The notes below the pieces were generated by a model, which had not been told where the DNA came from, searched no databases, and worked only from the letters and a program-made list of their open reading frames with translations. Both the position numbers and the translations under genes were made by a program. 26,061 nucleotides of DNA from a virus. The DNA lies in IMG/VR virus record IMGVR_UViG_3300028840_000408, positions 1 to 26,061 of that record; one strand, given 5' to 3'. This document shows positions 1 through 21,800 of this stretch, in pieces; within the stretch, counting starts at the first letter, position 1, and the number at the start of each line of letters is the position of its first letter.

Positions 1-150
1 CCAGGCACCAATCCTCCAGGCCCCACCCATCTCGTGGTTGCGTTCCAGTTCAACCATACAGCGAACGCCGTCCTTCTTTGGCTGGACCATCACCGGCCAG
101 CTTTTGATGAAGCGTTCTTCATAGTCTTTTGCGTATTGCGGTCTATCCAT
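1..150 (-). CDS. ATP-dependent DNA ligase, N-terminal fragment
   Basis: The first 50 codons of a gene that runs off the window's left edge. Translation from the ATG at 150 gives a short leader and then QPKKDGVRC. This matches nucleotidyltransferase motif I (KxDGxR), in which Lys25 would be the residue adenylylated by ATP. The motif is shared by ATP-dependent DNA ligases, RNA ligases and capping enzymes; the Q-P-K-x-D-G-V-R-C form is most like phage DNA ligases. An AAGGAC ribosome binding site sits 8 nt upstream. The start overlaps the end of the preceding 65-aa gene by 8 nt. Its likely role is sealing nicks during phage replication or repair. The placement next to RtcB makes a nucleic-acid repair block. 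RNA ligase cannot be excluded from 50 residues. Confidence 0.72.
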   Translation of the reverse strand, partial: MDRPQYAKDYEERFIKSWPVMVQPKKDGVRCMVELERNHEMGGAWRIGAW

Positions 151-340
151 TGTCTTTGTCCTTAAAACAGCGTGTCGGCGATTGCAGATCCACAGGTGCT
201 CCACCTGGGCATTTGAAGCCTGCCCACCAGGCCTGGGCTGCGGTCTGTACTTCAGGGGTGAAGGCCCTGCCGCAGGAGTCACTGTTCGAACAGGACTCCC
301 AGCGACGGCACCACCACCGGTCTCTAAAACATAGGGCCAT
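143..340 (-). CDS. small Cys/Trp-rich protein, hypothetical
   Basis: A 65-aa frame between RtcB and the ligase. I chose the ATG at 340 because it follows the RtcB stop by 2 nt and has a GAAGGGA ribosome binding site about 6 nt upstream, inside the RtcB end. The frame stays open further upstream only through RtcB coding sequence. The protein has six cysteines (C4, C11, C17, C23, C44, C58) and five tryptophans, which suggests a small metal-binding or disulfide-stabilised fold. No family recognised. Its position between two end-joining enzymes hints at an accessory role, which is inference only. Confidence 0.6.
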   Translation of the reverse strand: MALCFRDRWWCRRWESCSNSDSCGRAFTPEVQTAAQAWWAGFKCPGGAPVDLQSPTRCFKDKDNG

Positions 341-342
341 GG

Positions 343-1512
343 TTATCCCTTCACAACGGCCAGGGGTTTCAGTTTCGTGGTGGCCACGCATAGATCGGAC
401 TGCATGGCCATCACCTCGTCGATGTCCTTGTAGGCCCCAGGAGCCTCGTCAAGGTCCTCACGGCCCTTAACCTGATGCACAACACCCTCCAGCATCTTAA
501 GCTGTTCCTGGAGGTCCAGGGACTTCTGAGCGGCCTTCCGGCCTAAGGCCCTACCGGCCCCGTGGGACGTCGTTCTCAGGGCAGTGGGCGGAGCCTCATC
601 CTTGTACATAACAATGTAGCTGGCGGTCCCCTGGGAGCCTGGGATGATACCTACGGTGTCAGCGTAGAAAGGCCCAGCAGCACCTTTACGGTGGACCATG
701 ACATTCTTGCCCAGGTGGTTCTCCAGGGCCACATGGTTGTGGCAGATGTCGTGGATCACGCCAACATCCCCAACAGGACCAGGCAGCACGTCATCACAGG
801 CAGCGAGAACCTCAGCCATCATACGACGGCGGTTCAGCTTGGCGTACTCCACACAGTAGGCCATGTCGGCCATGTAAGCCTGGCCAAGACGGTCTCGGGT
901 ATCCAGGAAGGCCAGGTCCCAGGAGCTTTCAACCTTAGAGTATGCCCGGTCGTTCTCTTTCTTGGCGGCCTTGTTGTACCCGTCCGCTACCTGCTTACCA
1001 AGGTTACGGCTTCCGGAATGGATCATAGCCCACAGGTAGTCGTACTCATCCACCTGGATCTCAATAAAGTGGTTGCCGCCACCTAGTGTCCCCATCTGAC
1101 GACGGGCGTTCTGGAGATACATAGCCACAATGTTGGTATGTTCAAAGATCTGGGAGTTTGGCATGAATCGGTCCTGTACTGGGACGGGCCGCTTGTTGAA
1201 TCCTACCGGGACAACTTCACGGATTCTGTCGGTCAGGGCCACCAGGTCGTCACGGGTGACATTGCTGGCCATATACCCCAGGCGGACGGCAGCCATCCCA
1301 CAGCCGATGTCCACGCCTACCGCGTTCGGGATCACTACATTGGTATCCGTGGCGAGCACGGAGCCGATAGGCACACCGTAGCCTTGGTGGATGTCCGGCA
1401 TGATAGCCAGGGCACGCAGGAACGGCAGCCGCAGGATGTTCTCCAATTGCTCCAGGGCACCCAGGTCAATCTGATCAGTTCTAATTCGTCGGTAGTTTGG
1501 CATCGCGTTCAT
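343..1512 (-). CDS. rtcB: RtcB family RNA ligase
   Basis: 389 aa, slightly shorter than Escherichia coli RtcB. RtcB joins RNA 2',3'-cyclic phosphate or 3'-phosphate ends to 5'-OH ends using GTP and Mn2+. The conserved blocks are in order: IHQGYGVPIG (41-50), VGVDIGCGM (65-73, metal ligands D68 and C71), GGGNHF (144-149, H148), MIHSGSRNLG (163-172, H165), HDICHNH (254-260) and SHGAGR (316-321). H317 corresponds to the histidine that carries GMP. All key residues appear intact, so the enzyme should be active. The ATG at 1512 has AAGGA 8 nt upstream; the in-frame ATG at 1503 has none. The start overlaps the preceding gene by 32 nt. In phages, RtcB most plausibly repairs tRNAs cut by host anticodon nucleases. 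Confidence 0.96.
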   Translation of the reverse strand: MNAMPNYRRIRTDQIDLGALEQLENILRLPFLRALAIMPDIHQGYGVPIGSVLATDTNVVIPNAVGVDIGCGMAAVRLGYMASNVTRDDLVALTDRIREVVPVGFNKRPVPVQDRFMPNSQIFEHTNIVAMYLQNARRQMGTLGGGNHFIEIQVDEYDYLWAMIHSGSRNLGKQVADGYNKAAKKENDRAYSKVESSWDLAFLDTRDRLGQAYMADMAYCVEYAKLNRRRMMAEVLAACDDVLPGPVGDVGVIHDICHNHVALENHLGKNVMVHRKGAAGPFYADTVGIIPGSQGTASYIVMYKDEAPPTALRTTSHGAGRALGRKAAQKSLDLQEQLKMLEGVVHQVKGREDLDEAPGAYKDIDEVMAMQSDLCVATTKLKPLAVVKG

Positions 1513-1846
1513 TGCTTAAATCCTTAAGTAAAGTTTCTATGGCCTTGACGGCCTCTTCATTCTCATCACTGAACCTGGGAGTCCAGCACCGTTTCGTCAG
1601 CTTCCTAATCTCCTGAAGATCCTTGACGATAGGGCCGAACAGGTACTCCATTAGCTGCCCGTACAGTTGGCCCTTGACTTCGTCCTCAGTCGGCCAGTGG
1701 TTCTTACTGAGCATCTCCGTGGCGAAGTATTCGTTCTGACAGATGATCATTGTAATACCCTGAATCACTCGGGTATCCTCATCCTCCATGGTCTGAAAGC
1801 TCATCTTGTCCAGGAGGTCTGTCACTTTGTCTTTAACTTCGCTCAT
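1481..1846 (-). CDS. hypothetical protein, 121 aa
   Basis: An acidic, mostly helical soluble protein with no signal peptide and no membrane segment. No family recognised. The start at 1846 has GGAGAG 8 nt upstream. It overlaps the upstream membrane-protein gene by 14 nt and the downstream RtcB gene by 32 nt, so it is clearly translated within the same operon. The strong overlap with rtcB suggests translational coupling. Nothing in the sequence assigns a function. Confidence 0.75.
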   Translation of the reverse strand: MSEVKDKVTDLLDKMSFQTMEDEDTRVIQGITMIICQNEYFATEMLSKNHWPTEDEVKGQLYGQLMEYLFGPIVKDLQEIRKLTKRCWTPRFSDENEEAVKAIETLLKDLSNERDAKLPTN

Positions 1847-2417
1847 GGTTGATTCTCTCCAGCATGCCGTCGTGTTGCGTGTACATGAATTCCGCGTGAC
1901 ACAAGGTGCATTTGGTCATCATTTGTACGCCAGCCTCTGGGCCTCCTGCCAGCGTACCAGGACAGTCGGGACATATAGGTTTCTGGGCTTCATTGAACTG
2001 GAGCTTATAGAAGCCATCCGGGTAACAGCCCACGTTCGCACGGTTGCCAGGGTACACAGGATCAGGTTCAAGCTTCGCCCTCTGGGCCTGTAGCTCCTTG
2101 ATCTTTTTATCCTGGTAGGCCTTGAGCTTATCCATCCAGCCGAAACAGAAGTTGGTGACCGCACAGATAATGGTCCCACCCCATGTGGTTGTGTCCTTCC
2201 GGCAGATCAGCCGGGCAGCCGGTCCAATGATTGCGGCCAATACTACACCAAGGAAGGCAACAACAGCCACCATCCCTAGATAGAGACAGGCACCTGCGAA
2301 GAAGATCATTGTTAGGATCTCACGGAGTAGGTGCTTGCCGTCAACCCAAAGGTAGGTCAGTAGGCTCAAGGCACCGATGATCCACATTGCGTTTGTGTAT
2401 GTTAGCCATTCAATCAT
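1833..2417 (-). CDS. membrane protein with C-terminal zinc ribbon
   Basis: 194 aa from the ATG at 2417, which has a GGAGA site 5 nt upstream and sits just past the stop of the upstream gene. A longer in-frame TTG start at 2456 lacks support. Hydrophobic segments lie near residues 10-25, 34-65 (probably two passes or one long hairpin) and 79-93. They are followed by a charged helical stretch (95-115). The C-terminal domain carries C149-x2-C152 and C170-x2-C173, a zinc-ribbon pattern, probably on the cytoplasmic side. Membrane anchor plus zinc ribbon suggests a sensor or scaffold, but I do not recognise the family. It shares an operon with RtcB. Confidence 0.78.
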   Translation of the reverse strand: MIEWLTYTNAMWIIGALSLLTYLWVDGKHLLREILTMIFFAGACLYLGMVAVVAFLGVVLAAIIGPAARLICRKDTTTWGGTIICAVTNFCFGWMDKLKAYQDKKIKELQAQRAKLEPDPVYPGNRANVGCYPDGFYKLQFNEAQKPICPDCPGTLAGGPEAGVQMMTKCTLCHAEFMYTQHDGMLERINHERS

Positions 2418-2418
2418 G

Positions 2419-2649
2419 TCACTCTCCACAGTAATGTAGTAATAGTCTTTTGTCAACCCAGGTGGATTTCTCTCCAGGGAACTTTATCAGGCACAAGCTA
2501 GGCTGCACGTCCATGATCCGGCCTTTCTTACCACCGCCGCCCAGGACCAGGATCTCATCATCCATGGCCCAGTCGTCGATCTCGTCTTGTTCAAGGGGCC
2601 AGCCCACGCTCTCCAGAATTTTATCTGCTTCACTCTTGTCCATAGTCAT
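2419..2649 (-). CDS. hypothetical protein, 76 aa
   Basis: A small acidic protein with a glycine-rich turn (LGGGGKKGR, about residues 36-44) followed by a predicted beta-rich segment ending in WVDKRLLLHYCGE. The pattern resembles a small SH3-like or KOW-type barrel, but this is a weak guess. The start is either the ATG at 2649 (GGGA 5 nt upstream) or the ATG at 2643, and the sequence does not decide. It overlaps the upstream gene by 20 nt and ends 1 nt before the next start. Confidence 0.7.
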   Translation of the reverse strand: MTMDKSEADKILESVGWPLEQDEIDDWAMDDEILVLGGGGKKGRIMDVQPSLCLIKFPGEKSTWVDKRLLLHYCGE

Positions 2650-2992
2650 CCAAATCCCAATTAAAACTCTCTGCTCTTTTCTGAACGTTGGTCAGGTCTT
2701 CGCCATCCACCCAATCAGGTACGATATGCTTGGAATGCACCGAGACATTTTCCAGTTCACAGTTGGCCTCAAACCAGGGCAAGCCAAAGGACTCGAACGT
2801 AGGTTCACAGGCGGTTTCCAGGCTCCACTCAGACTGGATGGTAACCACTGCCGTAACTTCCCGCTTGTGCTCGTCGTTCCAGCCTACAACCTTTGCCGTG
2901 GCTCCGATGTGTATGGAGTAGCGTTTGATCAAGCCACTGTCCAGGGCCTCAGCATGTCGGTCATCGTCGCGTCTGTCATCATAATCACACAT
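2630..2992 (-). CDS. hypothetical protein, 120 aa, first gene of RtcB operon
   Basis: 120 aa from the ATG at 2992, chosen because GGAGG (complement at 3000-3004) lies 7 nt upstream; the in-frame ATG at 3022 has no such site. The N-terminus is very acidic and hydrophilic (DYDDRRDDDRH). The body is a mixed alpha/beta domain with several tryptophans. No family recognised. It is the first gene after the promoter at 3034-3062 and the terminator at 3073-3106, so it leads a new transcription unit that reaches RtcB and the ligase. Confidence 0.72.
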   Translation of the reverse strand: MCDYDDRRDDDRHAEALDSGLIKRYSIHIGATAKVVGWNDEHKREVTAVVTIQSEWSLETACEPTFESFGLPWFEANCELENVSVHSKHIVPDWVDGEDLTNVQKRAESFNWDLDDYGQE

Positions 2993-3033
2993 TGTCTTGC
3001 CTCCAAAATTCGTTTCATTCATCCAACACTTAA

Positions 3034-3062
3034 AGTATACTCAATGGACCGGGGACATGCAA
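3034..3062 (-). promoter_or_regulatory. sigma70-like promoter for the RtcB operon
   Basis: On the minus strand the -35 box TTGCAT and the -10 box TATACT are 17 nt apart. The -10 matches consensus at 5 of 6 positions, and TATACTTTAA is identical to the promoter at 5198-5226. The -35 is weak (3 of 6). It lies in an intergenic gap, directly after a terminator and 42 nt upstream of the start at 2992, where a promoter is expected. Confidence 0.6.
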
Positions 3063-3072
3063 ACAGAAAACT

Positions 3073-3106
3073 AAAAAAATAGGCCAGGTCCTATAAGAAC
3101 CTGGCC
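3073..3106 (-). terminator. rho-independent terminator after the protease gene
   Basis: The minus strand forms an 8-bp stem (GGCCAGGT paired with ACCTGGCC) with a 9-nt loop, followed by TA and seven T residues. It is 31 nt past the stop of the serine protease gene. This is a textbook intrinsic terminator. It closes the transcription unit that starts at the 5198-5226 promoter. Confidence 0.88.
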
Positions 3107-3136
3107 AGTCGGAGGAAGAAATGAGAGGGGAAGTGC

Positions 3137-3913
3137 TTATTCAAGTACTTGTTCTACTTTACTACACGTCCCGAACTCATAAATGGGTACGTATATAGAG
3201 TAGTTCTTATTAAACTTGCGGAGATCCGGAAAGCCTACGAAGATACCGGCCAGCTTTCCCTGGTAGAACACAGGACCGCCGCTGTTGCCGTGGACCGTGA
3301 AACAGGTGGTGCCTACTACCCTATCCCAGATCTCTGCAAGCTCCGGGTCATTAAAGTTTGGTAGGCCAGCGATCACCTTTTCAGCATGGACGTGACATAT
3401 GTTTCCTTTGGTGACGTAACCCGCCATTGAAAGGTAGGCCGGTGTCCCAATCATTACCACGTCACCACCTAGGGGAGGGTCTCCGTCCATGGTCTCAGCG
3501 ATAGGATGAGGAGGAACGCCGTATAGGTCTACCATAGCCAGGTCACTATCTGGGTCAAGCCACACACAATGCTCTTCGTTGATGAAATATTCGTTACCTT
3601 TATACAGGGCAGAGTATTTAGTGCCATCCGGTTTGTCTTCAAATAAATGTCTCGCCGTCATGAAGCTGCCGTGACTAATAAACACACCAGAACCAAACCC
3701 CATATGTTTGAACCGGTCACAGCATGGGGGTTGGTGCTTGCACGGGAATTCGATAAGGATCGTCACAGTAGTGTCCGCCAGATCCTGGATCGTGGGAGGC
3801 ATCACCTCAACCTGGGCCTCACTTGACACGGACCATCCAATAAAGCTCCAAGCCCCACAGTAGATCGAGACAATACAAGCTAACACTAGTGTGAATTTTA
3901 AGACATTATTCAT
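3137..3913 (-). CDS. exported trypsin-like serine protease
   Basis: 258 aa. A hydrophobic N-terminus (about residues 4-29) looks like a signal peptide or signal anchor, placing the catalytic domain in the periplasm or outside the cell. The chymotrypsin/HtrA-type triad is visible and intact: TARH (H89), DSDLAMV (D124) and GNSGGP (S211). There is no PDZ domain, so it is a compact single-domain protease. It has seven cysteines after the export signal (C58, C64, C65, C116, C173, C204, C250), consistent with disulfides outside the cytoplasm. The start has GAGGTGA a few nt upstream and overlaps the stop of the 39-aa gene (ATGA). It is the last gene before the terminator. This is not a prohead protease of a known type, because it is exported. 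Roles in altering the host surface, excluding other phages or virion entry are inference. Confidence 0.88.
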   Translation of the reverse strand: MNNVLKFTLVLACIVSIYCGAWSFIGWSVSSEAQVEVMPPTIQDLADTTVTILIEFPCKHQPPCCDRFKHMGFGSGVFISHGSFMTARHLFEDKPDGTKYSALYKGNEYFINEEHCVWLDPDSDLAMVDLYGVPPHPIAETMDGDPPLGGDVVMIGTPAYLSMAGYVTKGNICHVHAEKVIAGLPNFNDPELAEIWDRVVGTTCFTVHGNSGGPVFYQGKLAGIFVGFPDLRKFNKNYSIYVPIYEFGTCSKVEQVLE

Positions 3914-4029
3914 GCTATCACCTCATTAGTAGATTTCACTTCAGCCAGGACTTTTTCACGAGTACGTTTCTCGACATCCTTGGCCAGTTTCTTTGCTTCC
4001 TCTGGGCTATAGTCCTGCTTACGCTTCAT
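3910..4029 (-). CDS. 39-aa helical peptide upstream of the protease
   Basis: ATG at 4029, stop TGA at 3910-3912 overlapping the protease ATG. The peptide is highly charged and almost certainly one long amphipathic helix (EEAKKLAKDVEKRTREKV in the middle). The ribosome binding site is weak, but the frame exactly fills the gap between the lipoprotein gene and the protease. Translational coupling through the ATGA overlap supports it. No function can be assigned. Confidence 0.55.
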   Translation of the reverse strand: MKRKQDYSPEEAKKLAKDVEKRTREKVLAEVKSTNEVIA

Positions 4030-4040
4030 GGCACGACCGA

Positions 4041-4469
4041 TCAGAAGCCCAGGGGCAGCCGAGAGAACGGGTTACCTTCGGAGCCGACGACAATGTCCTG
4101 GATGGTTTGTCCCTCCCGCTTGGCCGCCTCATTGTATGCCTTGGCAAAAGAGTGTCGGAGCTTTTCGTCCTCAATCCTGCGGATGTTCTCAAGCTGCCTT
4201 AGTTGGTGTTGAAGTTTAATCTGGATGTTCATGTGGCGGACATGGTACAGCGAAGTGAATCCCCAGACCTGAGGGACCTCGGTCTCAAGGTAGTCGGTGA
4301 CAACCGGGCTGACCGGTGCCGGGGTGATGTGATCCATAGCAGTGTTGCAACCAAGCAGGGCCAGGCCCAGGATGGCGAGCACCGCACATGTCACGTTCAT
4401 CTTATCAAGCTTCACAAACTTGACTGCCTTTTTCGCCGGGGCAGCCTCCGGGATATTGGGTCTGTACAT
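4041..4469 (-). CDS. predicted lipoprotein / membrane-anchored helical protein
   Basis: 142 aa from the ATG at 4469, which has AGGAGA 5 nt upstream. The N-terminal 23 residues are Ala/Lys/Pro-rich, followed by a hydrophobic segment (26-40) ending in LALLGC, a good lipobox with C41 as the acylated residue. An internal ATG (residue 24) would give a classic short lipoprotein signal but lacks a ribosome binding site. Residues 75-125 are a long charged helix or coiled coil. It could be a lipoprotein, or a signal-anchored protein if the long N-terminus prevents processing. It belongs to the protease cassette and so may act in the same envelope compartment. Confidence 0.75.
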   Translation of the reverse strand: MYRPNIPEAAPAKKAVKFVKLDKMNVTCAVLAILGLALLGCNTAMDHITPAPVSPVVTDYLETEVPQVWGFTSLYHVRHMNIQIKLQHQLRQLENIRRIEDEKLRHSFAKAYNEAAKREGQTIQDIVVGSEGNPFSRLPLGF

Positions 4470-4487
4470 TGGATCTCCTAGTTAAAG

Positions 4488-4949
4488 TTAGTCGCTAAAG
4501 GACCCGTCGATCAGGGCCTCCAACGAAGCGACATATCCCGCCTTGCGTTTCAGGTACTCCCTGTGCAGGTTGATACGTCGCAGCTTGTTTGGGATGTTGT
4601 TAATGACCGCGTAGGCTCCCTTGAGTCTTTCGTCCAGGACGGTCTCTATTGTGGCCAACTCCAGTAACTGTTCCGTGTAGACGATCTCGCAATCCAGCAC
4701 CGCAGCACATTCAGCCTTGGCGTTGTCCATATCCTGTTCCAGCATGGAGCAAGTGAGACGAATCCCGTCCTTTAAGGTCAGGGCACACTCCACCATCTTA
4801 TCCGTGGGAAGCAGATCCACGACCGGCAGTTCCTCAATGCAGTGAATTGTTGTACAGTTCTCTGCGGCCTGCTGGACGAATAACTCCGGCTGTCGGACGA
4901 ACACACGCATCTCACTACCGTCAACAAATGTGACTTTGACTGGGATCAT
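4488..4949 (-). CDS. hypothetical protein, 153 aa
   Basis: The start at 4949 has GGAGAT 8 nt upstream and follows the stop of the 70-aa gene by 2 nt. The N-terminus (IPVKVTFVDGSEMRVFV) looks like a short beta hairpin; the rest is acidic and helical with four cysteines in residues 60-90. No family recognised. Second gene of the unit driven from 5198-5226. Confidence 0.72.
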   Translation of the reverse strand: MIPVKVTFVDGSEMRVFVRQPELFVQQAAENCTTIHCIEELPVVDLLPTDKMVECALTLKDGIRLTCSMLEQDMDNAKAECAAVLDCEIVYTEQLLELATIETVLDERLKGAYAVINNIPNKLRRINLHREYLKRKAGYVASLEALIDGSFSD

Positions 4950-4951
4950 GG

Positions 4952-5164
4952 CTACATCTCCAATTCGGGGAACACGACATCAACATCCTCTCCGAAGATC
5001 TGCGAAAAGCAGTCATACAGAGCACAACGGGCGTTCTCGTATGCACCACCACCTGCCAGGAGGGCGTCGGCTTCTTCCTCGGTATCCGTGGCAGGCATTA
5101 ACGTTTGGCCGGTGACTTCGGCGGCCACTTCGCCGTTTACGTAAATCAGTGCTTTGGTGATCAT
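4952..5164 (-). CDS. hypothetical protein, 70 aa, first gene of protease cassette
   Basis: ATG at 5164 with AAGGA 8 nt upstream. A longer in-frame start is ruled out because it would begin upstream of the promoter. The protein starts with a beta-like ALIYVNGEVAAEVTG stretch and continues with an acidic Glu/Ala-rich helix. Both its N-terminal pattern and its acidity resemble the next gene (4488-4949), so the two may be distantly related. No function recognised. It is the first gene after the near-consensus promoter. Confidence 0.7.
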   Translation of the reverse strand: MITKALIYVNGEVAAEVTGQTLMPATDTEEEADALLAGGGAYENARCALYDCFSQIFGEDVDVVFPELEM

Positions 5165-5197
5165 TTCAAAATTCCTTATAAATAGGTTACGTTTTAA

Positions 5198-5226
5198 AGT
5201 ATAGCTTATTTCATCTTCGGTGTCAA
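5198..5226 (-). promoter_or_regulatory. near-consensus sigma70 promoter
   Basis: Minus strand TTGACA (6 of 6) and TATACT (5 of 6) separated by exactly 17 nt. The -35 lies in the last codons of the zinc-ribbon gene and the -10 in the gap before the 70-aa gene. The first start codon is about 34 nt downstream of the -10. This should be a strong promoter for host RNA polymerase and marks the start of the protease cassette. Confidence 0.88.
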
Positions 5227-5439
5227 CCTTTTTTGATAGCCTTTTACTTGCTGGTTGGGGAGATCTACATTGTAGATGCCCCAAACCACCTTACAGTCTA
5301 CGCAAACGCAGCGAATGGTGTCACGTTCACCGTGGCCTGTCATGATTTTAACGATACCATCCATGACAGTTTTTCCTTCACATTCCAGGCATCTGATAAT
5401 AGCAGGGCCAAACGGTTTTGGTTTTCTTGCAGGGTGCAT
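5206..5439 (-). CDS. small zinc-ribbon protein
   Basis: 77 aa with two cysteine knuckles, C17-x2-C20 and C44-x-C46-x2-C49, the pattern of a zinc ribbon. The tail is basic (QVKGYQKRLTPKMK), consistent with nucleic-acid binding. The ATG at 5439 has AAGGAG 6 nt upstream. It follows the primase-helicase by 9 nt, so it may be a replication or transcription accessory factor. That role is inference; the specific family is not recognised. Confidence 0.75.
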   Translation of the reverse strand: MHPARKPKPFGPAIIRCLECEGKTVMDGIVKIMTGHGERDTIRCVCVDCKVVWGIYNVDLPNQQVKGYQKRLTPKMK

Positions 5440-5448
5440 CAGTTCTCC

Positions 5449-7812
5449 TTAAAAGGGCGGTCTATCTTCGGACACTTCGACATCTTGCCAAGGTGTCTTA
5501 CATCGCATTAATGTGTCCCAGTTGTCCCGGCACTCTTGCAGGGTGGGGAAGACGAAGCACATAGGACGGGTATTAACTCGCAGTCCGACGTTGGGGGAAT
5601 CCTTGTCCGGCGTGATCGAGATCTGCCGCGTTCTGGGATATCCTAAAGGAAGGAATCGTCCCAGGAATTTAGCCATCCGCGTCTTTGTACACCGGCTCTG
5701 CCACAGTTGACTCCCTGGGCGTTTGACGAACTCAACATAATCTAGGAACAACTCCTCTTTAATTACCACGCACTCCCATTCTTCCTGCCTGGGCAGTAGG
5801 ATACCTTCTTGAAGCTTATCATACCACCAGGCCTCTTCGGGGCTGAGGTTCAGGGCCTTCTGCTCTGCCAGGGCATCCGTCTTGGGAGCCTCAGCGAAGG
5901 AGAAGCCTGAGATATCGTAGTTCAGTAGGTAGTTCAGCAAGCCCTCATAACCACCGTCGTTCAGTTGGTTCATGATAGCACTGAAGTACTCGTGATCTTC
6001 CTTACGGGCGTCACTCACATCAAGGACGAAGAAACGTCTGTCATCCATATCGACAGGGATCACCCACTCAGAGTTGGAGGCCATGACGATGTGTAGATAG
6101 TTGCGTCCGAACTCGGCGTCAATACCTTTGGCCTCAATCATCAACTGCTCTTCAGTGATCAAGCCCTTGAGGATCGCTTCATTCTTTTTGTCACCAGCAT
6201 AGAAAGCTTCATCAGCGAACAGGAACACGCAGTCACGAAGGTGACTATTGAAGGCACCGGTCAAGTGTTTGGAGTTTGTCACTTGCAGGAAGTGTTGCCC
6301 GAACAGGTGGCCGAAGGCCTTAGAGAACACGCCCTTGCCTGTCCCTTGCTTGCCGCGTAGCACGATGGCCACACCAGCCGGTTGATCTGGGCGTTGCACC
6401 GCCGCAGCCATCCACTGCATGAAATAGTCGTAGTGTTCTTGGTTGCCACGGCACAGGTTCTCTTTGACATGCTCCAGGAACAGGGAGCAATCGCCAGGCT
6501 TGGCTACACAGTTGAAGCCCTGCCACAGGTTGAAAGCGTTGGGGGTCTCACGCCCAGGGACGAACACCATTGTGTCGAACTGTTCACGACGGGGATGCTC
6601 CAGCCACCACTTACCTAAAGGCATATACTGAGGGACATCGTTCTTCATCCCGATCTGTACTTGGCGGTTCATGTATCGGTTGCGGAAGTCTTCGAAGGCC
6701 TGGTAGATGATCTTGGTCCGGTCGAAGGCGTGGTCCCACTCCCTGGCAATGACTCGGCACTTAGAGCCCAGGGAAGCGATGACTGCGTGACGGTCGTTCA
6801 GTTCCCGCAGTTCCGCAGCTTCGGCCTGTTCCATCGCAGACTTGATCTGTTTTAAAGCGTAGGCCTCAGACCGGGAGCCAAGCTCCAGGACGGACTCGGA
6901 GATCTTGAAGTCAGGGTCCGTGATGACGGCGTAGATCGTCTCAGCGTCACAACCTGCCCGGACCAACTCGCAGCATACACAGAACAGAGACTCAGACCGT
7001 GACTCAAACCGGCCAGGGTCATCAGGATCTTTACCTTGAACGATCAGGACCTTAACCCACGGCTTCACAGCTTCGGGGAGATCCTCCACGGAGGCCAGCC
7101 TCTGCACGTTTCCGCTCACGTCGGGGAGGATGACGTTGGTGGCCAGGGAGGTTCTACTCTGTCCCGCTTGACCTTGCACCATCGGGGCCGCAGTGAAGGC
7201 ACTGATAGGATAGACCACGGACTCATCAAAGTATAGCAACGTGGCCTGGACTTTCTCACGACCCTTGGCCCGCTTCTTTGCGTCCGGCAGGTTCATGGTC
7301 CCAGGCACACGCATGATTCTATCGACATTGTGACAGTTGTCACCACCGAAGAGGATCTCAAGCTGCACGTTGTATCGCTTGGCATCTTCAGCCAGGGCCA
7401 GGTCACCGTCAATCTTGACAGGCTCGGCCAGCTTCCAGAATGCTTGGTAGCCACCACCGGAGAAGATCACACAGGAGGGCCGGGGCTCAGCGTTGCGGAA
7501 CTTGTTAAGGATGCGTTCCTGCTCCTCTTTAAGGTCCTCACCTACGCGGGGATCAACGTCAACATGTAGCCAGTCCATGTGCTTCATGTCAGTACGCTTG
7601 GCCTTCTTATTGATCGGATTGATCGTGGGGTTGACGGAGAAATAGATGTTGTGGGCCGCGTTCATTTTCTCGATCCACGCTTCCATCTTGTCCGTCTGTT
7701 GGGCATTGAATGTCAGACCGATTGGAGCTTTCTTACGCTCAGGATCTGTGGCCACCAGGAGCCACGGTCCGCCTGGTCTGAATTTATTTAGAAAGTCGGT
7801 TGCAATGTGCAT
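5449..7812 (-). CDS. primase-helicase (AEP primase fused to SF3 helicase, DUF5906-like)
   Basis: 787 aa, a typical length for phage and plasmid primase-helicases. The N-terminal archaeo-eukaryotic primase-like domain shows LHVDVDP (82-88, metal-binding D85/D87), SGGGYQAFW (118-126) and DRIMRVPGTMN (164-174). After a linker, the C-terminal superfamily 3 helicase domain has Walker A GKQGTGKG (487-494), Walker B VFLFADE (529-535) and a sensor-like IVMASN (575-580). A D5-like extension follows. The protein should both prime and unwind DNA at the fork. The start at 7812 has AGGGA upstream and overlaps the VRR-NUC gene by 29 nt. It neighbours the polymerase, nuclease and helicases, forming a complete replication set. 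Confidence 0.93.
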   Translation of the reverse strand: MHIATDFLNKFRPGGPWLLVATDPERKKAPIGLTFNAQQTDKMEAWIEKMNAAHNIYFSVNPTINPINKKAKRTDMKHMDWLHVDVDPRVGEDLKEEQERILNKFRNAEPRPSCVIFSGGGYQAFWKLAEPVKIDGDLALAEDAKRYNVQLEILFGGDNCHNVDRIMRVPGTMNLPDAKKRAKGREKVQATLLYFDESVVYPISAFTAAPMVQGQAGQSRTSLATNVILPDVSGNVQRLASVEDLPEAVKPWVKVLIVQGKDPDDPGRFESRSESLFCVCCELVRAGCDAETIYAVITDPDFKISESVLELGSRSEAYALKQIKSAMEQAEAAELRELNDRHAVIASLGSKCRVIAREWDHAFDRTKIIYQAFEDFRNRYMNRQVQIGMKNDVPQYMPLGKWWLEHPRREQFDTMVFVPGRETPNAFNLWQGFNCVAKPGDCSLFLEHVKENLCRGNQEHYDYFMQWMAAAVQRPDQPAGVAIVLRGKQGTGKGVFSKAFGHLFGQHFLQVTNSKHLTGAFNSHLRDCVFLFADEAFYAGDKKNEAILKGLITEEQLMIEAKGIDAEFGRNYLHIVMASNSEWVIPVDMDDRRFFVLDVSDARKEDHEYFSAIMNQLNDGGYEGLLNYLLNYDISGFSFAEAPKTDALAEQKALNLSPEEAWWYDKLQEGILLPRQEEWECVVIKEELFLDYVEFVKRPGSQLWQSRCTKTRMAKFLGRFLPLGYPRTRQISITPDKDSPNVGLRVNTRPMCFVFPTLQECRDNWDTLMRCKTPWQDVEVSEDRPPF

Positions 7813-8221
7813 TATTGTTCCCTGTAAGATAGGCCGCTACTTCGTCTGCTGATTTCCCAATGAAACACGCAAGGGCACGATGCTCCTGGGCATTCCGGTT
7901 ATCCTTGCAAACTTTCTTACAAGCCGTCTCACCATCAAACACCAGCCACTCGCGAGTCTTAGAGACTTGCAAACACAGCCATACTGCTCCTTGATTATAC
8001 CACCGACGCATGATCCAAACCCGCTGTTGCTGGGTGTAGTGGTCGAGGGTGACTTTCGTTTCTTTCTTAACAGGCCAGCGTTCCAGGTACTTCAGTTCGA
8101 CCCACCCGCCAATATAGTTGACGTCCGGTGTCCCTGGGAGTGCCGGGTTTTCAACACTGATCGCATCCTTCTTAAGCTTGTTCAGTGCTTTGACTATCTT
8201 TTTTCGTTGATCCTGTTCCAT
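7784..8221 (-). CDS. VRR-NUC domain nuclease
   Basis: 145 aa, a single-domain PD-(D/E)xK nuclease of VRR-NUC type. The core is LPGTPDVNYIGGWVELK (28-44): D33, E42 and K44 are the catalytic set. A helix with QQQRVW (64-69) supplies the usual conserved Gln. Stand-alone phage VRR-NUC proteins are thought to cleave branched or flap DNA, for example Holliday junctions. The start at 8221 has only a weak GAGA site, and the gene begins 50 nt inside the upstream frame, so it is probably translationally coupled. It lies between polymerase and primase, as in many phages. Confidence 0.9.
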   Translation of the reverse strand: MEQDQRKKIVKALNKLKKDAISVENPALPGTPDVNYIGGWVELKYLERWPVKKETKVTLDHYTQQQRVWIMRRWYNQGAVWLCLQVSKTREWLVFDGETACKKVCKDNRNAQEHRALACFIGKSADEVAAYLTGNNNAHCNRLSK

Positions 8222-8612
8222 TAATATTCTCGATTAAATCCTGTTCAGGGGTGAAGAAAACAACGGTGACGATCTCGCCTTCAAGAATCCCATCATACTG
8301 GGACTTCATGTCGGCCATGAATCGCTTGAAGCTTTTACCGGCATCCTTACAGTGGTAGTAGCTGCCCAGGAGGATCTTGTAGCGGGACAGATCGCCCAGG
8401 ACCATGTGCTTGACCTCGAAGATCCGGGCTCGGCCCCAACATGTCTGCGTGCATTGCTGATCTTCCCACACGTTAACCATGTCGCCGACCGCAACATCTT
8501 GTGCCTGGATGCCTTTCAGAACCACAATATTAAGTGCAATCGGGTCCTCCAGGTTTGGCACCTCGATCTTCTTGGTCCTCAGTTCCTTATTAGGTAGCCA
8601 TAGTTTATACAT
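8172..8612 (-). CDS. hypothetical protein, 146 aa
   Basis: A soluble mixed alpha/beta protein with a hydrophilic Ser/Thr/Gln tail that overlaps the VRR-NUC gene by 50 nt. The middle (residues 30-85) looks beta-rich, with a possible small barrel around VGDMVNVWED. No family recognised. The start at 8612 lies within the last codons of the polymerase gene (8-nt overlap), with GGAG about 12 nt upstream. Its place between polymerase and nuclease suggests a replication accessory, which is inference. Confidence 0.7.
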   Translation of the reverse strand: MYKLWLPNKELRTKKIEVPNLEDPIALNIVVLKGIQAQDVAVGDMVNVWEDQQCTQTCWGRARIFEVKHMVLGDLSRYKILLGSYYHCKDAGKSFKRFMADMKSQYDGILEGEIVTVVFFTPEQDLIENINGTGSTKKDSQSTEQA

Positions 8613-10587
8613 TTGTCAGTTCGTTCTCCATTGAGTGCCCCCAACTACTGCCAAGCTCCACGTCCACTTTGGACGGAACTTTCAAGGTGACACAGTCTGT
8701 CATAATCTTAGCGATTTCATATGCCTCAGACTTCTTATACACAGTTGTATCAAATTCGTCGTGAACTTGCAACTGTAAACTGAAGCCAGCCTCATAAATT
8801 TTTACCATGGCCAGCTTGGTTTGGTCCGCAGAACTGCCCTGGATCAGGTTATTTAGGGCCTTTCGCTCGTTGCCGAACCCGGCTTGGTAGTGAATATGCC
8901 GTCCCAGGAGGGTGATTATATGACGTCGGTTCCATGCCACGCCCTCTACCAGCTTCTTGATTTCCTGCAAAAAGGGCACGCGGCGGTTGAACTCCTCCAG
9001 AAATTTCTTTCCTTCAGGGCCTGCAACCTCTCGCTCTTCGCCCTTGATCTTGATGATCTCCACAGGGAAGCCCAGAGACCGGCAGAGCTTGCCGCCGCCC
9101 ATACCGTACACTAACCCTAGGAAGATGATCTTTGCCCGCCCACGGAGGAATTTAAACTGCTTAGGGTCCGTGTTAGCCGGTGTAGCACCAAAGGCCAGTT
9201 CGGTGGTCGTGTTGTGGAAATCCCAGTTGGGATCGGTGTTTGCCTGGTGGACAGCCTCCGCAGCACCTGGGCAGTTGCACAAAGCCGCAAAGTGGGTGAG
9301 CATACGGGGCTCCTGCCCGGAGTAGTCCATGGCCGCCCACATGCCGCCCTCATCCGGCAGGTATATCTTCCGCCAGAAGATATGGACCGGCATATCCAAG
9401 GCCCACCAGTTGGGCTTACGGCCAGGCTGCTGTTGAAGGTTGGGATTGGATGACGACATACGCCCAGGGCCAGCACCTACCACGGTCTCAGAATTCTGAC
9501 CTTGGCGTTTCAACTGGTTCAACGTCGCGTGAATCCGTCCGTTGACCTGGTGAGACCTGATAGACTTCACGAACGTGTTTCTCAGCTTGTTCAGGTATTT
9601 GGCATGGATGATTGCCGATGCTACCTTGTTGTCCTTTGCAAGGGGCATGAGAAGCTCTGTATTGATCTTAGGCTGCCCGGTGGGTGTCTTATCATAGGGA
9701 AGGCCCGCAGCGTCCAGAGCACGGGCTGTGAGGGTTTTCTTGTTGATCTCATCCACACAGATCCGAACGTTGGTACGACGGGCGATCTCGTCCAGCATAA
9801 GCTGTTCCTGGACAATCGTCCATTGCTCCACGCGGTCCAGGTGGTCGAAGTCGATACGCACACCATGGCGTCTCATTCGAATGAGGATGGGCTGTACGCG
9901 ACGTTCCAGGTCGTACATGCCCTGGAGGCCCTGCTGATCAATAAGCCGCTCCTGACGGCGTAGGATCTTCAGGGGCAGGTCTGCGTCGTCTTCAGCGTAG
10001 AGACCGACATAGCGGGCCGGGAGCTTCCACATATCTTTCTTGGCGTCAATCCCGTAGGCCATGGCCGCATCTCTCAGGGCGTCCTCATTCTTACCCTGGA
10101 AGCCGTAGCCTTTGGCCGTGGCCTCCAGCGAGTACTGGAGCTTGTTCTCATCCAGCAAGGGCTCAGCCACTTGGATGTCACGAAGGTCATGATCCAGGAG
10201 GTCAACCCCGGCCTCAGCTAGGTAGTCCACATCGTAGCCCAGGTTGGCACCGCAGATGGAGCCGGTGAATTCCTTGGACCGATCCTTCAGGTACTGGAAC
10301 ACCTTAGTCTCGTTCATGTTGTCACCACCTCGGTGACGTGTAGGCAGATAGAACTTGGGACCGTCTTCAATGGCGAAGGACACTCCGACGATATAGCCAC
10401 CACGCCGAACACCTGGGCCTAACTTCCGCAGGTCCTTGTCGTTGGTCTCGGTATCAAGACCGATCCGTTTGATGCCCTTCCATGATTGAGGTAGGTCCTC
10501 GAAAGACGGGGGCCTCCAGTTGCTCTCAGGCTTGAACAACGGAGGCGTGTCAGTGTCTTTCCAATTTCTATAGCTACGTCTTGCCAT
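8605..10587 (-). CDS. polA: family A DNA polymerase with 3'-5' exonuclease, Leu762 type
   Basis: 660 aa. The proofreading domain is intact: GLDTETND (D45, E47), N115-x3-D119 and Y197-x3-D201. There is no 5'-3' exonuclease domain, as usual for phage enzymes. Polymerase motif A is AMDYSGQEPR (D421), motif B is RGRAKIIFLGLVYG (R482, K486, Y494) and motif C is VHDE (H609, D610, E611). Aligning motif B to E. coli Pol I places L490 at the Phe762 position; the usual Asn before it is Phe. This site affects discrimination against dideoxynucleotides and divides viral polymerases into Phe, Tyr and Leu groups. The start at 10587 has AAGGAA 9 nt upstream and shares a base with the upstream stop. This is the replicative polymerase of the phage. 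Confidence 0.97.
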   Translation of the reverse strand: MARRSYRNWKDTDTPPLFKPESNWRPPSFEDLPQSWKGIKRIGLDTETNDKDLRKLGPGVRRGGYIVGVSFAIEDGPKFYLPTRHRGGDNMNETKVFQYLKDRSKEFTGSICGANLGYDVDYLAEAGVDLLDHDLRDIQVAEPLLDENKLQYSLEATAKGYGFQGKNEDALRDAAMAYGIDAKKDMWKLPARYVGLYAEDDADLPLKILRRQERLIDQQGLQGMYDLERRVQPILIRMRRHGVRIDFDHLDRVEQWTIVQEQLMLDEIARRTNVRICVDEINKKTLTARALDAAGLPYDKTPTGQPKINTELLMPLAKDNKVASAIIHAKYLNKLRNTFVKSIRSHQVNGRIHATLNQLKRQGQNSETVVGAGPGRMSSSNPNLQQQPGRKPNWWALDMPVHIFWRKIYLPDEGGMWAAMDYSGQEPRMLTHFAALCNCPGAAEAVHQANTDPNWDFHNTTTELAFGATPANTDPKQFKFLRGRAKIIFLGLVYGMGGGKLCRSLGFPVEIIKIKGEEREVAGPEGKKFLEEFNRRVPFLQEIKKLVEGVAWNRRHIITLLGRHIHYQAGFGNERKALNNLIQGSSADQTKLAMVKIYEAGFSLQLQVHDEFDTTVYKKSEAYEIAKIMTDCVTLKVPSKVDVELGSSWGHSMENELTNV

Positions 10588-10958
10588 TACGAATATTTCC
10601 TTTCGCGAATGACCGGCTTCTTTGGCCAGATACCCATGGCACGTTTAACGAAGTCCCAGCTATGTGCCTGCATCCAAGCCCGGCAGAGGTCTACATCATC
10701 AGTGCCTCTCAGTTGTAGCTGATGTTTGTCTGGAATATCCAGAGCCTGGATCTGGTTGAACATAGAAACACGATGAGCACGGGTAAGATAATTACGCCCA
10801 TACTGGCCACGGTTAGCAACAAGAACAATCTGCTCCTGCACAATTGGCTGTCCTGGCACAGGAACATTAGGAGCAGGGCGTGGTGTCCCTCTCACGGCCA
10901 ACTGTTGAGAGAATTTGGCCGCTTGACGGCAGGCGTGATCTAGCATCTGGTTATTCAT
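10587..10958 (-). CDS. hypothetical protein, 123 aa
   Basis: A basic protein with a Pro/Val-rich linker (residues 25-45) between two helical segments. The C-terminus (QAHSWDFVKRAMGIWPKKP) is basic and aromatic, which might bind nucleic acid. The start at 10958 has GAGGT upstream and a TAATG junction with the preceding gene; the stop overlaps the polymerase start. No family recognised. Confidence 0.72.
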   Translation of the reverse strand: MNNQMLDHACRQAAKFSQQLAVRGTPRPAPNVPVPGQPIVQEQIVLVANRGQYGRNYLTRAHRVSMFNQIQALDIPDKHQLQLRGTDDVDLCRAWMQAHSWDFVKRAMGIWPKKPVIRERKYS

Positions 10959-11332
10959 TACTTTACCTCATTTCTTGGGTTAAGATTCATAACGTGACCG
11001 AACTTCCCGGCCCTGTTGATCATTCTAATAACATAGGTCCCCCAGCCTTGTTCGGCTTCGTGGAACTCTATTCCTAACTCGTGCATGATCTCCAGGACGT
11101 GACCGAACGGATGGTCAACGGTATAGTTCAGCACGAAGCAGGCGGGCATCAGCGGGCCAGCGATCATGGTCCTGGAGGGTAATGACACCACCTCTTCCAA
11201 ACACTCATAACCATTACCGTCATCCACACAGTTCCGACAGTCATAACAATTGAACAGCCAGATCTCTTTGGAGTCTTTGATGGCCTGACGCATGGCCCGC
11301 TTAAGCAACGCTTTCTTGGTTTTATTTAACAT
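10958..11332 (-). CDS. hypothetical Cys-cluster protein, 124 aa
   Basis: A basic N-terminal helix (residues 1-20) precedes a cysteine cluster C29-x2-C32-x2-C35 with C44, which looks like a metal-binding site. The remainder is a mixed alpha/beta domain. No known family recognised. The ribosome binding site is weak and the start lies 11 nt inside the arginine-rich gene, so it is probably coupled to it. Confidence 0.7.
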   Translation of the reverse strand: MLNKTKKALLKRAMRQAIKDSKEIWLFNCYDCRNCVDDGNGYECLEEVVSLPSRTMIAGPLMPACFVLNYTVDHPFGHVLEIMHELGIEFHEAEQGWGTYVIRMINRAGKFGHVMNLNPRNEVK

Positions 11333-11537
11333 TCAATAGGTCCCGACATCTTTCAATCAATTCATCCATGATAAGGAATGGCGGAAGAAAAAGCAAGTCT
11401 AAAATGCTGTACCGTGTTCTTTTTCTTCGACGGCGTAACGGCTTCTGCCAGTTGTACTTCCGAGTCCGGCGAAAGGCCAGGTCTCGACGTTGGCGACGAC
11501 GGTTACGGATGGATCTAGGTGTTCGGTACTTCGCCAT
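11322..11537 (-). CDS. arginine-rich small protein
   Basis: 71 aa. The first 42 residues contain 17 arginines, including blocks such as RNRRRQRR and RRRRKR. The last 28 residues form a hydrophobic and then acidic helix (LDLLFLPPFLIMDELIERC). The shape suggests nucleic-acid binding at the N-terminus and a protein or membrane contact at the C-terminus. The ATG at 11537 has a good AGGAGA site. It lies 9 nt after the helicase stop, inside the replication operon. Function unknown. Confidence 0.7.
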   Translation of the reverse strand: MAKYRTPRSIRNRRRQRRDLAFRRTRKYNWQKPLRRRRKRTRYSILDLLFLPPFLIMDELIERCRDLLNVK

Positions 11538-11546
11538 GATACTCTC

Positions 11547-12731
11547 CTATCTAACTACCAGTGTAAGTTTCTCTGCTGCCCGAGTCACGGCAGTGTATAA
11601 CCACTTGAACCGATCACTCCCAAACACAGAACTTTCGTCGAAGACTAGGACCGAGTCCCATTGCGATCCCTGGGCCTTGTGACATGTTAGGGCGTACCCA
11701 TAGTCAAACTCCTGGGCTTCCTTACGAATCCACCACGGAAGCTGGGCCTTAGGATCTGGATTAACAAACGGATCAGCGTGTGCTTCGACAGCCACGTACT
11801 GCCCGTCCTCATTCATAACAATCAGGTCAACCTTGTCGCGATCATCCCCAGCAAAGCAGGTGTCCACGGTCCAGATGCTTCCATTCAGGAGGCCGACCTC
11901 GTGATCATTACGCAAGCAGACGACTCTATCCCCAGGGACAGGCAGTTCTGACTCACGCCTAAGCAGTTCGCGAATGCGAAAGTTTGTTGCCTTCTTGGTG
12001 TCGTTCTTACCTACCAAAAGTTGCTCGTGTTCTAAGACTTCCTCAGGGCTGATAGATCCCCAGGCACGGACCATCCCGCCATCGGGCCGGGGCATCTTAC
12101 GTTCCCGGATGTCCGTAGCCAATCGGATGATCGGATTCTCACGGGCCTGTCTGTGGATCTCTGTCAGCATAAAGTCAGGTTGTGCATTGATAAAGTAACC
12201 CGCACCAAACACCGGTGGCAGTTGGGCAGGATCGCCCAGGACCAAAATGTCCACACCGAAGCTCATCAGGTCACGGGCCATCTGTTCGTTCACCATGGAA
12301 ACCTCATCCACGATGATCAGGTCAGCACCTTTAACCATGCTCTCTGGATTAAGCTTAAAGCTTGGACTGTTCAGCTTTTTCTGTTCCAGGGCAATCTCAA
12401 TTTCAAGTTGTTCTTTACGTTTGACATCCTCATCGTCGCAGCATGCGAGTTGTTCCTCAAGCCTCTTCAGAGGCAGCTTACTCCGTTCCTGCGGTAGATA
12501 AATCAACTGGTGTATAGTATAAGCCTCTACACCTTTCTGGCGTAGGACGTAAGCAGCCTTACCTGTGAAGGCACAGAACAGGGGCAGTGTGCAGTCCTCG
12601 GCAATGTACTTGGCCAAGGTCGTTTTCCCTGTACCCGCATACCCAAACAGACGAAAGACTTGGCTGGCACTGTTACGCCTCCAGGCCTTGATCATATCTA
12701 TAGCTCGTTGCTGTTGGGGTGCAAGTTTCAT
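11547..12731 (-). CDS. Dda/RecD-like SF1B DNA helicase
   Basis: 394 aa, close in size to T4 Dda. Motifs in order: Walker A GYAGTGKTT (30-38, K36), Walker B VDEVSM (141-146), motif III GDPAQLPP (166-173), HRQA (193-196), HKAQGSQW (351-358) and YTAVTRA (379-385). A charged helical insertion lies between motifs Ia and II (about 80-125). Such 5'-3' helicases help origin opening, recombination and clearing bound proteins. The start at 12731 has GAGGT upstream. It follows the ssDNA-binding protein candidate across a gap with a strong hairpin. Confidence 0.93.
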   Translation of the reverse strand: MKLAPQQQRAIDMIKAWRRNSASQVFRLFGYAGTGKTTLAKYIAEDCTLPLFCAFTGKAAYVLRQKGVEAYTIHQLIYLPQERSKLPLKRLEEQLACCDDEDVKRKEQLEIEIALEQKKLNSPSFKLNPESMVKGADLIIVDEVSMVNEQMARDLMSFGVDILVLGDPAQLPPVFGAGYFINAQPDFMLTEIHRQARENPIIRLATDIRERKMPRPDGGMVRAWGSISPEEVLEHEQLLVGKNDTKKATNFRIRELLRRESELPVPGDRVVCLRNDHEVGLLNGSIWTVDTCFAGDDRDKVDLIVMNEDGQYVAVEAHADPFVNPDPKAQLPWWIRKEAQEFDYGYALTCHKAQGSQWDSVLVFDESSVFGSDRFKWLYTAVTRAAEKLTLVVR

Positions 12732-16574: not shown

Positions 16575-16603
16575 ATAATACACTACTCGGGACCTGGAGT
16601 CAA
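16575..16603 (-). promoter_or_regulatory. sigma70 promoter for the SNF2 unit
   Basis: Minus strand TTGACT and TATTAT with a 17-nt spacer, each 5 of 6 to consensus. The -10 is in a true intergenic gap and the -35 overlaps the stop codon of the metallopeptidase gene. The first gene downstream starts at 16507. Confidence 0.85.
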
Positions 16604-17037
16604 GACTTTTTCTTCTTCTTCTTCTTCTTCTCCTCCGGTAATTCTTCCCAATCGAACAGGTCCGACATTCTGCGTAGTTCTACCAGAGTCCTGGCCAGCA
16701 CGTCTGTAGGCCGTTCAAGGAAAACAAGCTCCTCTTCCCTGGTTAATGTGCCCTTAAGCTTATCACAAATTTCTGCTGTTCGGACGTGAACCATCTCATG
16801 TAGGATCGACTCTTCCATGTCTGTATCGTCAGCGTTGGCAGACCAAGTGCTGGGATCTGAGATCCGGATGTGGGCCGTCATGTACGGCAACGAATGCCCG
16901 ACCTGGGCGTAGCAATCATTCATATCAGAATCATTGTGCATTGTCCACGATATTTCCCAATCCCGTAAGGCGAGTTTATTTCTCCAATATCTGATGACGT
17001 CGTTGATTTGTTCTCCTGTTAACGTTTTGTAAATCAA
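16600..17037 (-). CDS. HExxH metallopeptidase-like protein, TTG start
   Basis: 145 aa. The zinc-binding motif is ILHEMVH (78-84, ligands H80 and H84, general base E81), with acidic candidates for a third ligand near 101-109. The preceding strand TAHIRIS (54-60) and helix layout fit a compact minimal zincin. The C-terminus is EE followed by eight lysines and Ser, from a CTT-type triplet repeat at 16606-16629. The start is a TTG at 17037, supported by GGAGG 6 nt upstream. No ATG is near, and upstream codons lie inside another gene. Related phage zincins are of unknown function; an anti-defence or host protein-cleaving role is speculation. Confidence 0.8.
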   Translation of the reverse strand: MIYKTLTGEQINDVIRYWRNKLALRDWEISWTMHNDSDMNDCYAQVGHSLPYMTAHIRISDPSTWSANADDTDMEESILHEMVHVRTAEICDKLKGTLTREEELVFLERPTDVLARTLVELRRMSDLFDWEELPEEKKKKKKKKS

Positions 17038-17321
17038 AATACACCTCCATAGTAAATAAGTAAGGCCAGCCACACGGTGTTGGCAATGGCCACGAACCAC
17101 GCACCAAGGCCACTGAACTTCTGGCCCAGGTTGGGATAATAGAACAGGTTCCAATACCCCCAGATAGTGAAGAAGGCAACCGCAACCCAGGAGACTCCGG
17201 CCACGCTCTTCAACGTCCAGACACTGTGGATGTTCAAGCAAACAAAGAAGCCTCCGAACATCTCGAAGGCCCCGTTGATTTTATCCGTGAATTTGTTTAA
17301 GAAGCTTTTGATGTGCAACAT
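17034..17321 (-). CDS. small multi-pass membrane protein, 95 aa
   Basis: The ATG at 17321 has GGAG 5 nt upstream and was preferred over in-frame starts further up that lie in another gene. Hydrophobic segments lie at about 20-35, 40-62 and 71-93, so two or three membrane passes. The first 18 residues are basic and probably cytoplasmic. Its size and topology would fit a holin, but the location away from lysis genes and lack of an endolysin nearby leave this open. It overlaps the metallopeptidase start by 4 nt. Confidence 0.75.
   Translation of the reverse strand: MLHIKSFLNKFTDKINGAFEMFGGFFVCLNIHSVWTLKSVAGVSWVAVAFFTIWGYWNLFYYPNLGQKFSGLGAWFVAIANTVWLALLIYYGGVF
17044..17048 (-). promoter_or_regulatory. 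ribosome binding site fixing a TTG start
   Basis: GGAGG on the minus strand, 6 nt before TTG at 17037-17035. It sits in the last codons of the membrane-protein gene, whose stop overlaps the TTG (TTGA). This site decides the start of the metallopeptidase gene. Confidence 0.8.
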
Positions 17322-21548: not shown

Positions 21549-21800
21549 CTAACTGCCTGGCCAGATCGACCTTGCGATCAAGGCAAGGACTCCGATAACC
21601 GCTGTTCCGATAACTGTCAGGACGGTCTTACGTCCGGCACTCTCGGACAGCGTTCTAAAATTTCTGGCGAACTGCATGTCTTTCTGGACCTCCAAGGGAT
21701 TGTCAGCGTCAATCCCAAGGGCGATCAAAGTCGTCTTTACGGCCTTTCCAGCCGCCTTATCTGCCAACTGTTCAAGATGGTCTTCTGTATACTCAGCCAT
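21549..21800 (-). CDS. small C-terminal-anchored membrane protein, 83 aa
   Basis: A soluble acidic N-terminal half with DMQFARNFRTLSESAGRK (41-58), followed by one membrane helix (about 59-78) and a short tail. Proteins of this layout occur beside phage tail genes and resemble the DUF6127 type; some may act as holins, but that is unproven. The start forms a TAATG junction with the hub stop, so translation is probably coupled. It is also the first gene downstream of the internal promoter at 21897-21925. Confidence 0.75.
   Translation of the reverse strand: MAEYTEDHLEQLADKAAGKAVKTTLIALGIDADNPLEVQKDMQFARNFRTLSESAGRKTVLTVIGTAVIGVLALIARSIWPGS

Follow-up and report, generated by a model that had tools for sequence, protein, structure and literature searches.

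Positions 3,073 to 5,226 of an IMG/VR virus record (IMGVR_UViG_3300028840_000408; 26,061 nt, probably a fragment, and referred to here in its entirety as the window) hold a compact run of ORFs between a promoter-like and a terminator-like sequence. A preliminary description read this run as an autonomous phage "moron" cassette of five genes, encoding two small unknown proteins, a lipobox protein, a 39-aa helical peptide and an exported serine protease. This raises the questions of whether the run is a genuine transcription unit, whether it was recently acquired, and what its products might do in an infected cell. All five ORFs, the promoter and the terminator were found on the minus strand, at the positions given below.

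The transcription unit and its boundaries

The adjoining primase-helicase and the DNA polymerase are 49% and 48% identical, respectively, to those of Pseudomonas phages of Abidjanvirus (Mesyanzhinovviridae). Core replication genes shared with members of this family (primase and DNA polymerase) are thus present, and the clade that carries the unit is probably related to the Mesyanzhinovviridae, with the window as a 26-kb fragment. The genes 3' of the primase in Abidjanvirus phages differ from the cassette in the window. The nearer clade is seen as metagenomic contigs only (L002, L017, L018, L019, L020, L037, L053 and L054, of which L019 and L020 are near-identical), giving nine contigs with the window included. 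An alignment of the primase was used as the query for relatives, and the loci were therefore picked independently of the cassette. A single-sequence search of viral contigs with the protease returned no relatives, and alignments were required. Six further loci (L021–L026) are related through the protease only; they have the trypsin-like domain alone in common, and no match to any further window protein was found in them.

The promoter (TTGACA-17-TATACT, positions 5198–5226) is the best of 10 promoter-like sites in positions 1–12,000 of the window. This count is no evidence in itself, because shuffles of the sequence give a mean of 8.4 such sites. Random 80-nt stretches of the clade genomes reach 11 of 12 consensus positions in about 0.4% to 1.1% of cases, while a promoter with an 11/12 match and a 17-nt spacer lies just 5' of the first gene in all six loci tested and also in L053 and L054 (the relatives with this site are L002, L017, L018, L019, L037, L053 and L054). 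The -35 hexamer overlaps the 3' end of an upstream ORF encoding a zinc-ribbon-like protein of 77 aa (p77, positions 5206–5439), which lies between the primase and the cassette and is not part of the unit. In the window the hexamer is read as Leu-Thr, whereas in L017 it is read in another frame, as Ile-Asp-Lys, and it is therefore the DNA that is conserved and not the peptide.

The unit ends in an intrinsic terminator with an 11-bp stem and a T run (positions 3073–3106; GGCCAGGTTCTTATAGGACCTGGCC and TATTTTTTT at 3106–3082 on the minus strand, -18.7 kcal/mol). In a stricter scan this was the only strong terminator found in the window, L002, L017 and L037, and L020 gave one additional weaker match; the terminator of L018 escaped the script but is evident on reading the sequence. 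Every relative has a terminator at this position 3' of the protease gene. As the promoter and terminator recur at the same places in nine contigs, the unit is almost certainly real, and the near-consensus sigma70 promoter, the clean terminator and the autonomy that the preliminary description had proposed are all borne out by the comparison. The conserved signals make it a clear example of a phage transcription unit identified from its relatives and not from motif scores.

Several features accompany these signals. The promoter of the next unit, of a weaker type, lies outside the cassette (TTTGCA-18-TATACT, positions 3034–3063, minus strand) and is conserved directly 3' of the terminator in the relatives, with a spacer of 17 or 18 nt. 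Between its -35 and -10 hexamers, L002 and L019 carry a palindrome, CATAGATT-NAATCTATG, and L037 a similar one; this looks like a candidate operator. In every clade member, the protease stop codon and the terminator are separated by a pyrimidine-rich box that resembles an anti-Shine-Dalgarno sequence (in the window AAGCACTTCCCCTCTCATTTCTTCCTCC, positions 3111–3138, minus strand). Its CCTCC core is present in all relatives, and the box is near-identical in the window, L002 (15373–15400) and L053 (after 12203), even though the proteases of the window and L002 are only ~30% identical. At the other end of the unit, the first ATG lies ~12 nt after the -10 hexamer in L002 (12578–12618), L017, L018, L019, L037 and L054, and a transcript from the cassette promoter would therefore be almost leaderless in these six relatives; in the window and L053 the two lie further apart.

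A clade-specific operon or a moron

The primase-keyed search recovered the unit, with gene order and site unchanged, in all eight relatives with a primase identity of at least 54% (54% to 58%). Each of the eight carries the genes for the zinc ribbon, p70, p153, the lipoprotein and the protease in that order, and seven of them also carry a gene for a Cys-rich protein. None of the 72 loci with lower primase identity, some of which are short and lack the flank, carries any cassette gene. Between L017 and L018, dN/dS was 0.105 for p70, 0.136 for p153, 0.082 for the lipoprotein, 0.18 for the Cys-rich protein and 0.097 for the protease; these ratios (0.08 to 0.18) indicate that the cassette genes are under purifying selection.

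A moron, in the definition applied here, is horizontally acquired and independently transcribed (PMC6469090). Like phage moron cassettes, the unit has its own promoter and terminator and predicted envelope-directed products; the conserved boundary signals point to independent transcription. The unit is also absent from the more distant relatives that have the same primase and from 50,697 deposited phage records. Unlike moron cassettes, it is fixed at one site in the clade, its genes are under purifying selection and no tyrosine integrase was found in G000–G006. Its GC content (51.1%) is ordinary, lying inside the range of the window, and we rejected a foreign origin on this basis. A recent horizontal gain predicts presence in some close relatives and absence from others, but the block comparison that the preliminary description had suggested gave a fixed order in eight of eight relatives, at loci found independently of the cassette. 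Its "moron" label is therefore not retained, and we consider it highly unlikely that the unit is a moron in the strict sense, that is, a dispensable cassette gained horizontally and altering the envelope of a lysogen. By this comparison the unit is a clade-specific core operon and not a recently gained extra, and that it is at once a real transcription unit and core to the clade appears close to certain. The clade may have gained the block in a single event at its root. In L054, an HNH endonuclease gene (10288–10614; PF13392, 7e-12) is inserted between the p153 and lipoprotein genes.

The preliminary description knew of no characterised phage system with this gene set, and our searches agree. 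We searched the 50,697 deposited phage records with p153, the lipoprotein, the Cys-rich protein and the protease. The first three gave no matches, and the phage-encoded HtrA-type envelope protease gave a single weak one (27% identity). A search of the literature for a phage HtrA-like protease or for the gene set of the cassette returned nothing direct. What is new is the combination of genes and their fixed place, while the pieces, an HtrA-type catalytic domain and a lipoprotein, are of known kinds.

Products of the unit

The two small proteins of the preliminary description are present, and neither belongs to a Pfam or PHROG family: p70, p153, the lipoprotein ORF and the 39-aa ORF all lacked a significant match in these libraries. 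Sub-cut-off Pfam matches for p77, the lipoprotein and the Cys-rich protein were disregarded. The first gene of the unit encodes p70 (70 aa, positions 4952–5164), which is kept in all nine clade members, is 34% to 38% identical to its relatives, lacks a transmembrane segment and is predicted to be soluble. The second product, p153 (153 aa, positions 4488–4949), is also predicted to be soluble. It was studied through alignments and a structure model of the L017 homologue (pLDDT 84.5), which has two beta-beta-alpha-beta units and a helical hairpin. When this model was used for a fold search, no match rose above noise; small ferredoxin-like hits to subtilisin propeptides, with a Z of about 5, were discounted as evidence.

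The lipobox protein is a 142-aa ORF (positions 4041–4469) with the motif LLGC, in which Cys41 corresponds to codon 4347–4349; its export is predicted, as is a helical periplasmic part. This ORF corresponds to the first half of the lipoprotein of the relatives, which is a single intact ORF of ~210–235 aa in all eight and comprises a lipobox, a helical stretch (~96 residues between lipobox and hydrophobic helix in L017), a mid-protein hydrophobic helix ending in RKR, and a further ~75 residues. The lipobox-like motifs (LLGC, GSGC, SAGC and GGGC) lack Asp at position +2, and an outer-membrane signal is predicted only; the motif of L037 (GSLC) is irregular. The structure model of the lipoprotein was poor (pLDDT 53), too poor for a fold search.

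A profile built from the lipoproteins of five relatives, with the window left out, was run against 588 ORFs of the window. The best-ranked ORF was 3913–4071 (profile positions 134–173, E 0.0013) and the second 4044–4481 (profile positions 6–95, E 0.003), while the third reached only E 6. The same two pieces were paired with the relatives' lipoprotein by tblastn, with a summed E of about 1e-6. The 39-aa ORF (positions 3910–4029), predicted to be cytoplasmic, lies within the first of these pieces and corresponds to the C-terminal part of the lipoprotein, out of frame with the lipobox ORF. This strongly suggests that the lipoprotein gene of the window is split over two overlapping frames, with loss of the hydrophobic helix. 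The preliminary description had treated the 39-aa peptide as the product of a gene of its own, and the frame is indeed still open (3913–4071), with a stop codon that overlaps the protease start (ATGA) and would permit translational coupling. Against this, the homology to the lipoprotein begins upstream of the 39-aa ATG, the ORF lacks a plain Shine-Dalgarno sequence, unlike the other cassette genes of the window, and all eight relatives have one intact lipoprotein ORF; the 30-base overlap, read by eye, also contains no standard slippery heptamer. It is therefore very improbable that the ORF is a separate gene or a programmed-frameshift product and not the remaining 3' part of a gene disrupted by mutation or by an assembly error. 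The split itself may have arisen through natural mutation, an assembly error or frameshifting. The five ORFs of the preliminary description thus stand, but they amount to four genes, one of which is broken.

Most relatives encode, between the lipoprotein and protease genes, a protein of 93–117 aa that usually has an N-terminal hydrophobic helix and a Cys-rich domain (VWVRxDLKGKHRxxCLCxxC...PVWECP). Its gene is missing from the window and L054, and an Aminicenantes MAG includes a contig that encodes a soluble relative. In L018 (11177–11455) the protein has no N-terminal helix and instead carries a piece like SEHLTPGTI of the lipoprotein. With its lipoprotein gene split and the Cys-rich protein gene gone, the window copy appears to be a reduced version of the unit.

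The last gene encodes a trypsin-like, HtrA-type serine protease of 258 aa (positions 3137–3913), which is probably membrane-anchored. It matches Pfam Trypsin_2 (E 6.5e-16), and in a profile search of the PDB the best matches were DegP, DegQ and DegS, with E-values down to 9e-15. The catalytic domain aligns to residues 74–244, and the triad His89/Asp124/Ser211 is conserved, with GNSGGP around the serine. A hydrophobic N-terminal segment, the predicted anchor, is present in the window protease and in five of five relatives tested. The exported serine protease of the preliminary description is therefore supported, its export being a prediction. Members of the HtrA family have at least one C-terminal PDZ domain, and DegS is membrane-anchored with an inhibitory PDZ domain (PMC11642142). 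The phage protease resembles HtrA/DegS (MEROPS S1C) in its trypsin-like domain, His-Asp-Ser triad and N-terminal anchor but, unlike them, is phage-encoded and lacks a PDZ domain C-terminal to the catalytic domain: Pfam gave no PDZ match, there is no room for one, and the relatives end likewise. As the PDZ domain is inhibitory in DegS, the phage protease could, by analogy, perhaps be constitutively active. PADLOC matches to RT-Protease and LmuA reflect the general trypsin domain only and were not taken as identity.

A further difference from HtrA/DegS is a repeated GGLxSxx linker in the proteases of some relatives, which could form a coiled coil. It is encoded by a G-rich repeat (GAGGGTGGGTTG..., often with 21-nt spacing) in the protease genes of L002 (14736–14790), L020 (11700–11740) and L053 (11519–11640). 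Arrays of the repeat also occur elsewhere in the same genomes (L041 1845–1998, L043 14389–14535), as if it were spreading within the phage.

Possible roles in the infected cell

Motifs and predicted topology make an envelope location of the products probable. We tentatively take proteolytic remodelling of the envelope of the infected cell to be their most likely role. The host RNA polymerase would transcribe the unit without a need for phage factors. The lipoprotein would be lipidated and, in the relatives, its mid-protein helix would cross the inner membrane, so that the protein would extend from a membrane into the cytoplasm. The protease would be located at the inner membrane and face the periplasm, in the manner of DegS but lacking the inhibitory PDZ domain, and the two proteins could together remodel the envelope through the cleavage of at least one of its proteins. 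The Trypsin_2 domain with its intact triad, the predicted anchor of the protease, and the lipobox and hydrophobic stretch of the relatives' lipoprotein favour this role. On the other side, lipidation and export are sequence predictions, the lipobox of L037 is irregular, and the loss of the transmembrane part and of the Cys-rich protein in the window would be hard to explain if the complex had to be complete. Four of the five families have no match in the libraries, and the proposed role is therefore drawn largely from the protease and from topology. The most probable uses, taken jointly and with similar reserve, are superinfection exclusion or control of the host's envelope-stress signalling, and an envelope-remodelling module would provide a defined set of four to five genes for one or the other. 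Ltp of TP-J34, which functions in superinfection exclusion, is likewise a phage-encoded lipoprotein (PMC3952083); as described, it is set apart from the lipoprotein of the unit by its architecture and by the latter's protease partner.

The same parts could be read as a non-canonical lysis or egress module, in which the relatives' lipoprotein, anchored by lipid in the outer membrane and by its helix in the inner one, would serve as a unimolecular spanin, and the periplasmic protease would release or activate cell-wall hydrolases of the host. Unimolecular spanins, such as phage T1 gp11, combine a lipobox with a membrane helix (PMC6139136), a layout that the relatives' lipoprotein shares in its predicted N-terminal lipoprotein signal and later transmembrane helix, and the ~96-residue stretch in L017 could bridge the periplasm. 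Among the matches listed for the near-complete relative G001 there was no endolysin, holin or spanin family, and the endolysin families PF00959, PF01510, PF13539 and PF01464 were not found in G001–G006; PF05838 also gave nothing, but is uninformative as it had no match in any control genome. In phage Ab18 a lysozyme-holin-Rz cassette follows the tail genes, and a cassette of this type was not recognised after the tail genes here. Lysis genes are, however, diverse and easily missed, and these absence searches covered some families only. The helix of the relatives' lipoprotein is also mid-protein and followed by a long, presumably cytoplasmic tail of ~75 residues, unlike a terminal transmembrane domain, and the periplasmic part is helical in the low-confidence model, whereas those of unimolecular spanins are mainly beta. 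The unit further stands beside replication genes under a host-type promoter and not beside a holin, and the window copy lacks the helix. We therefore regard a lysis role as unlikely, though it would fill a gap in phages without recognised lysis genes; that an exported protease and an envelope-spanning lipoprotein replace the whole holin-endolysin-spanin set, as a new exit from Gram-negative cells, is less likely still. A role in counter-defence is another candidate, in which a membrane-bound defence protein of the host would be inactivated by the exported protease, with p70 and p153 acting on the same system in the cytoplasm. Takeover genes typically encode small uncharacterised proteins, lie next to the replication genes and have a strong host-type promoter, and p70 and p153 fit this pattern. 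PADLOC, on the other hand, gave no match beyond the general trypsin fold, and the fixation of the unit throughout the clade suggests that it serves a broader need, which makes counter-defence quite unlikely and leaves envelope remodelling as the reading that we favour.

Elsewhere in the window, also on the minus strand, an 83-aa protein with one C-terminal hydrophobic helix (21549–21800; phrog_6420) is encoded directly after the tail genes and is a possible holin by position. The ORF at 16600–17241 has a metalloprotease-like HEMVH motif and ends C-terminally in a long lysine run. An RtcB-type RNA ligase (343–1512; PF01139, 2.9e-96) is also found in L002 and L019/L020, and partly in L037.
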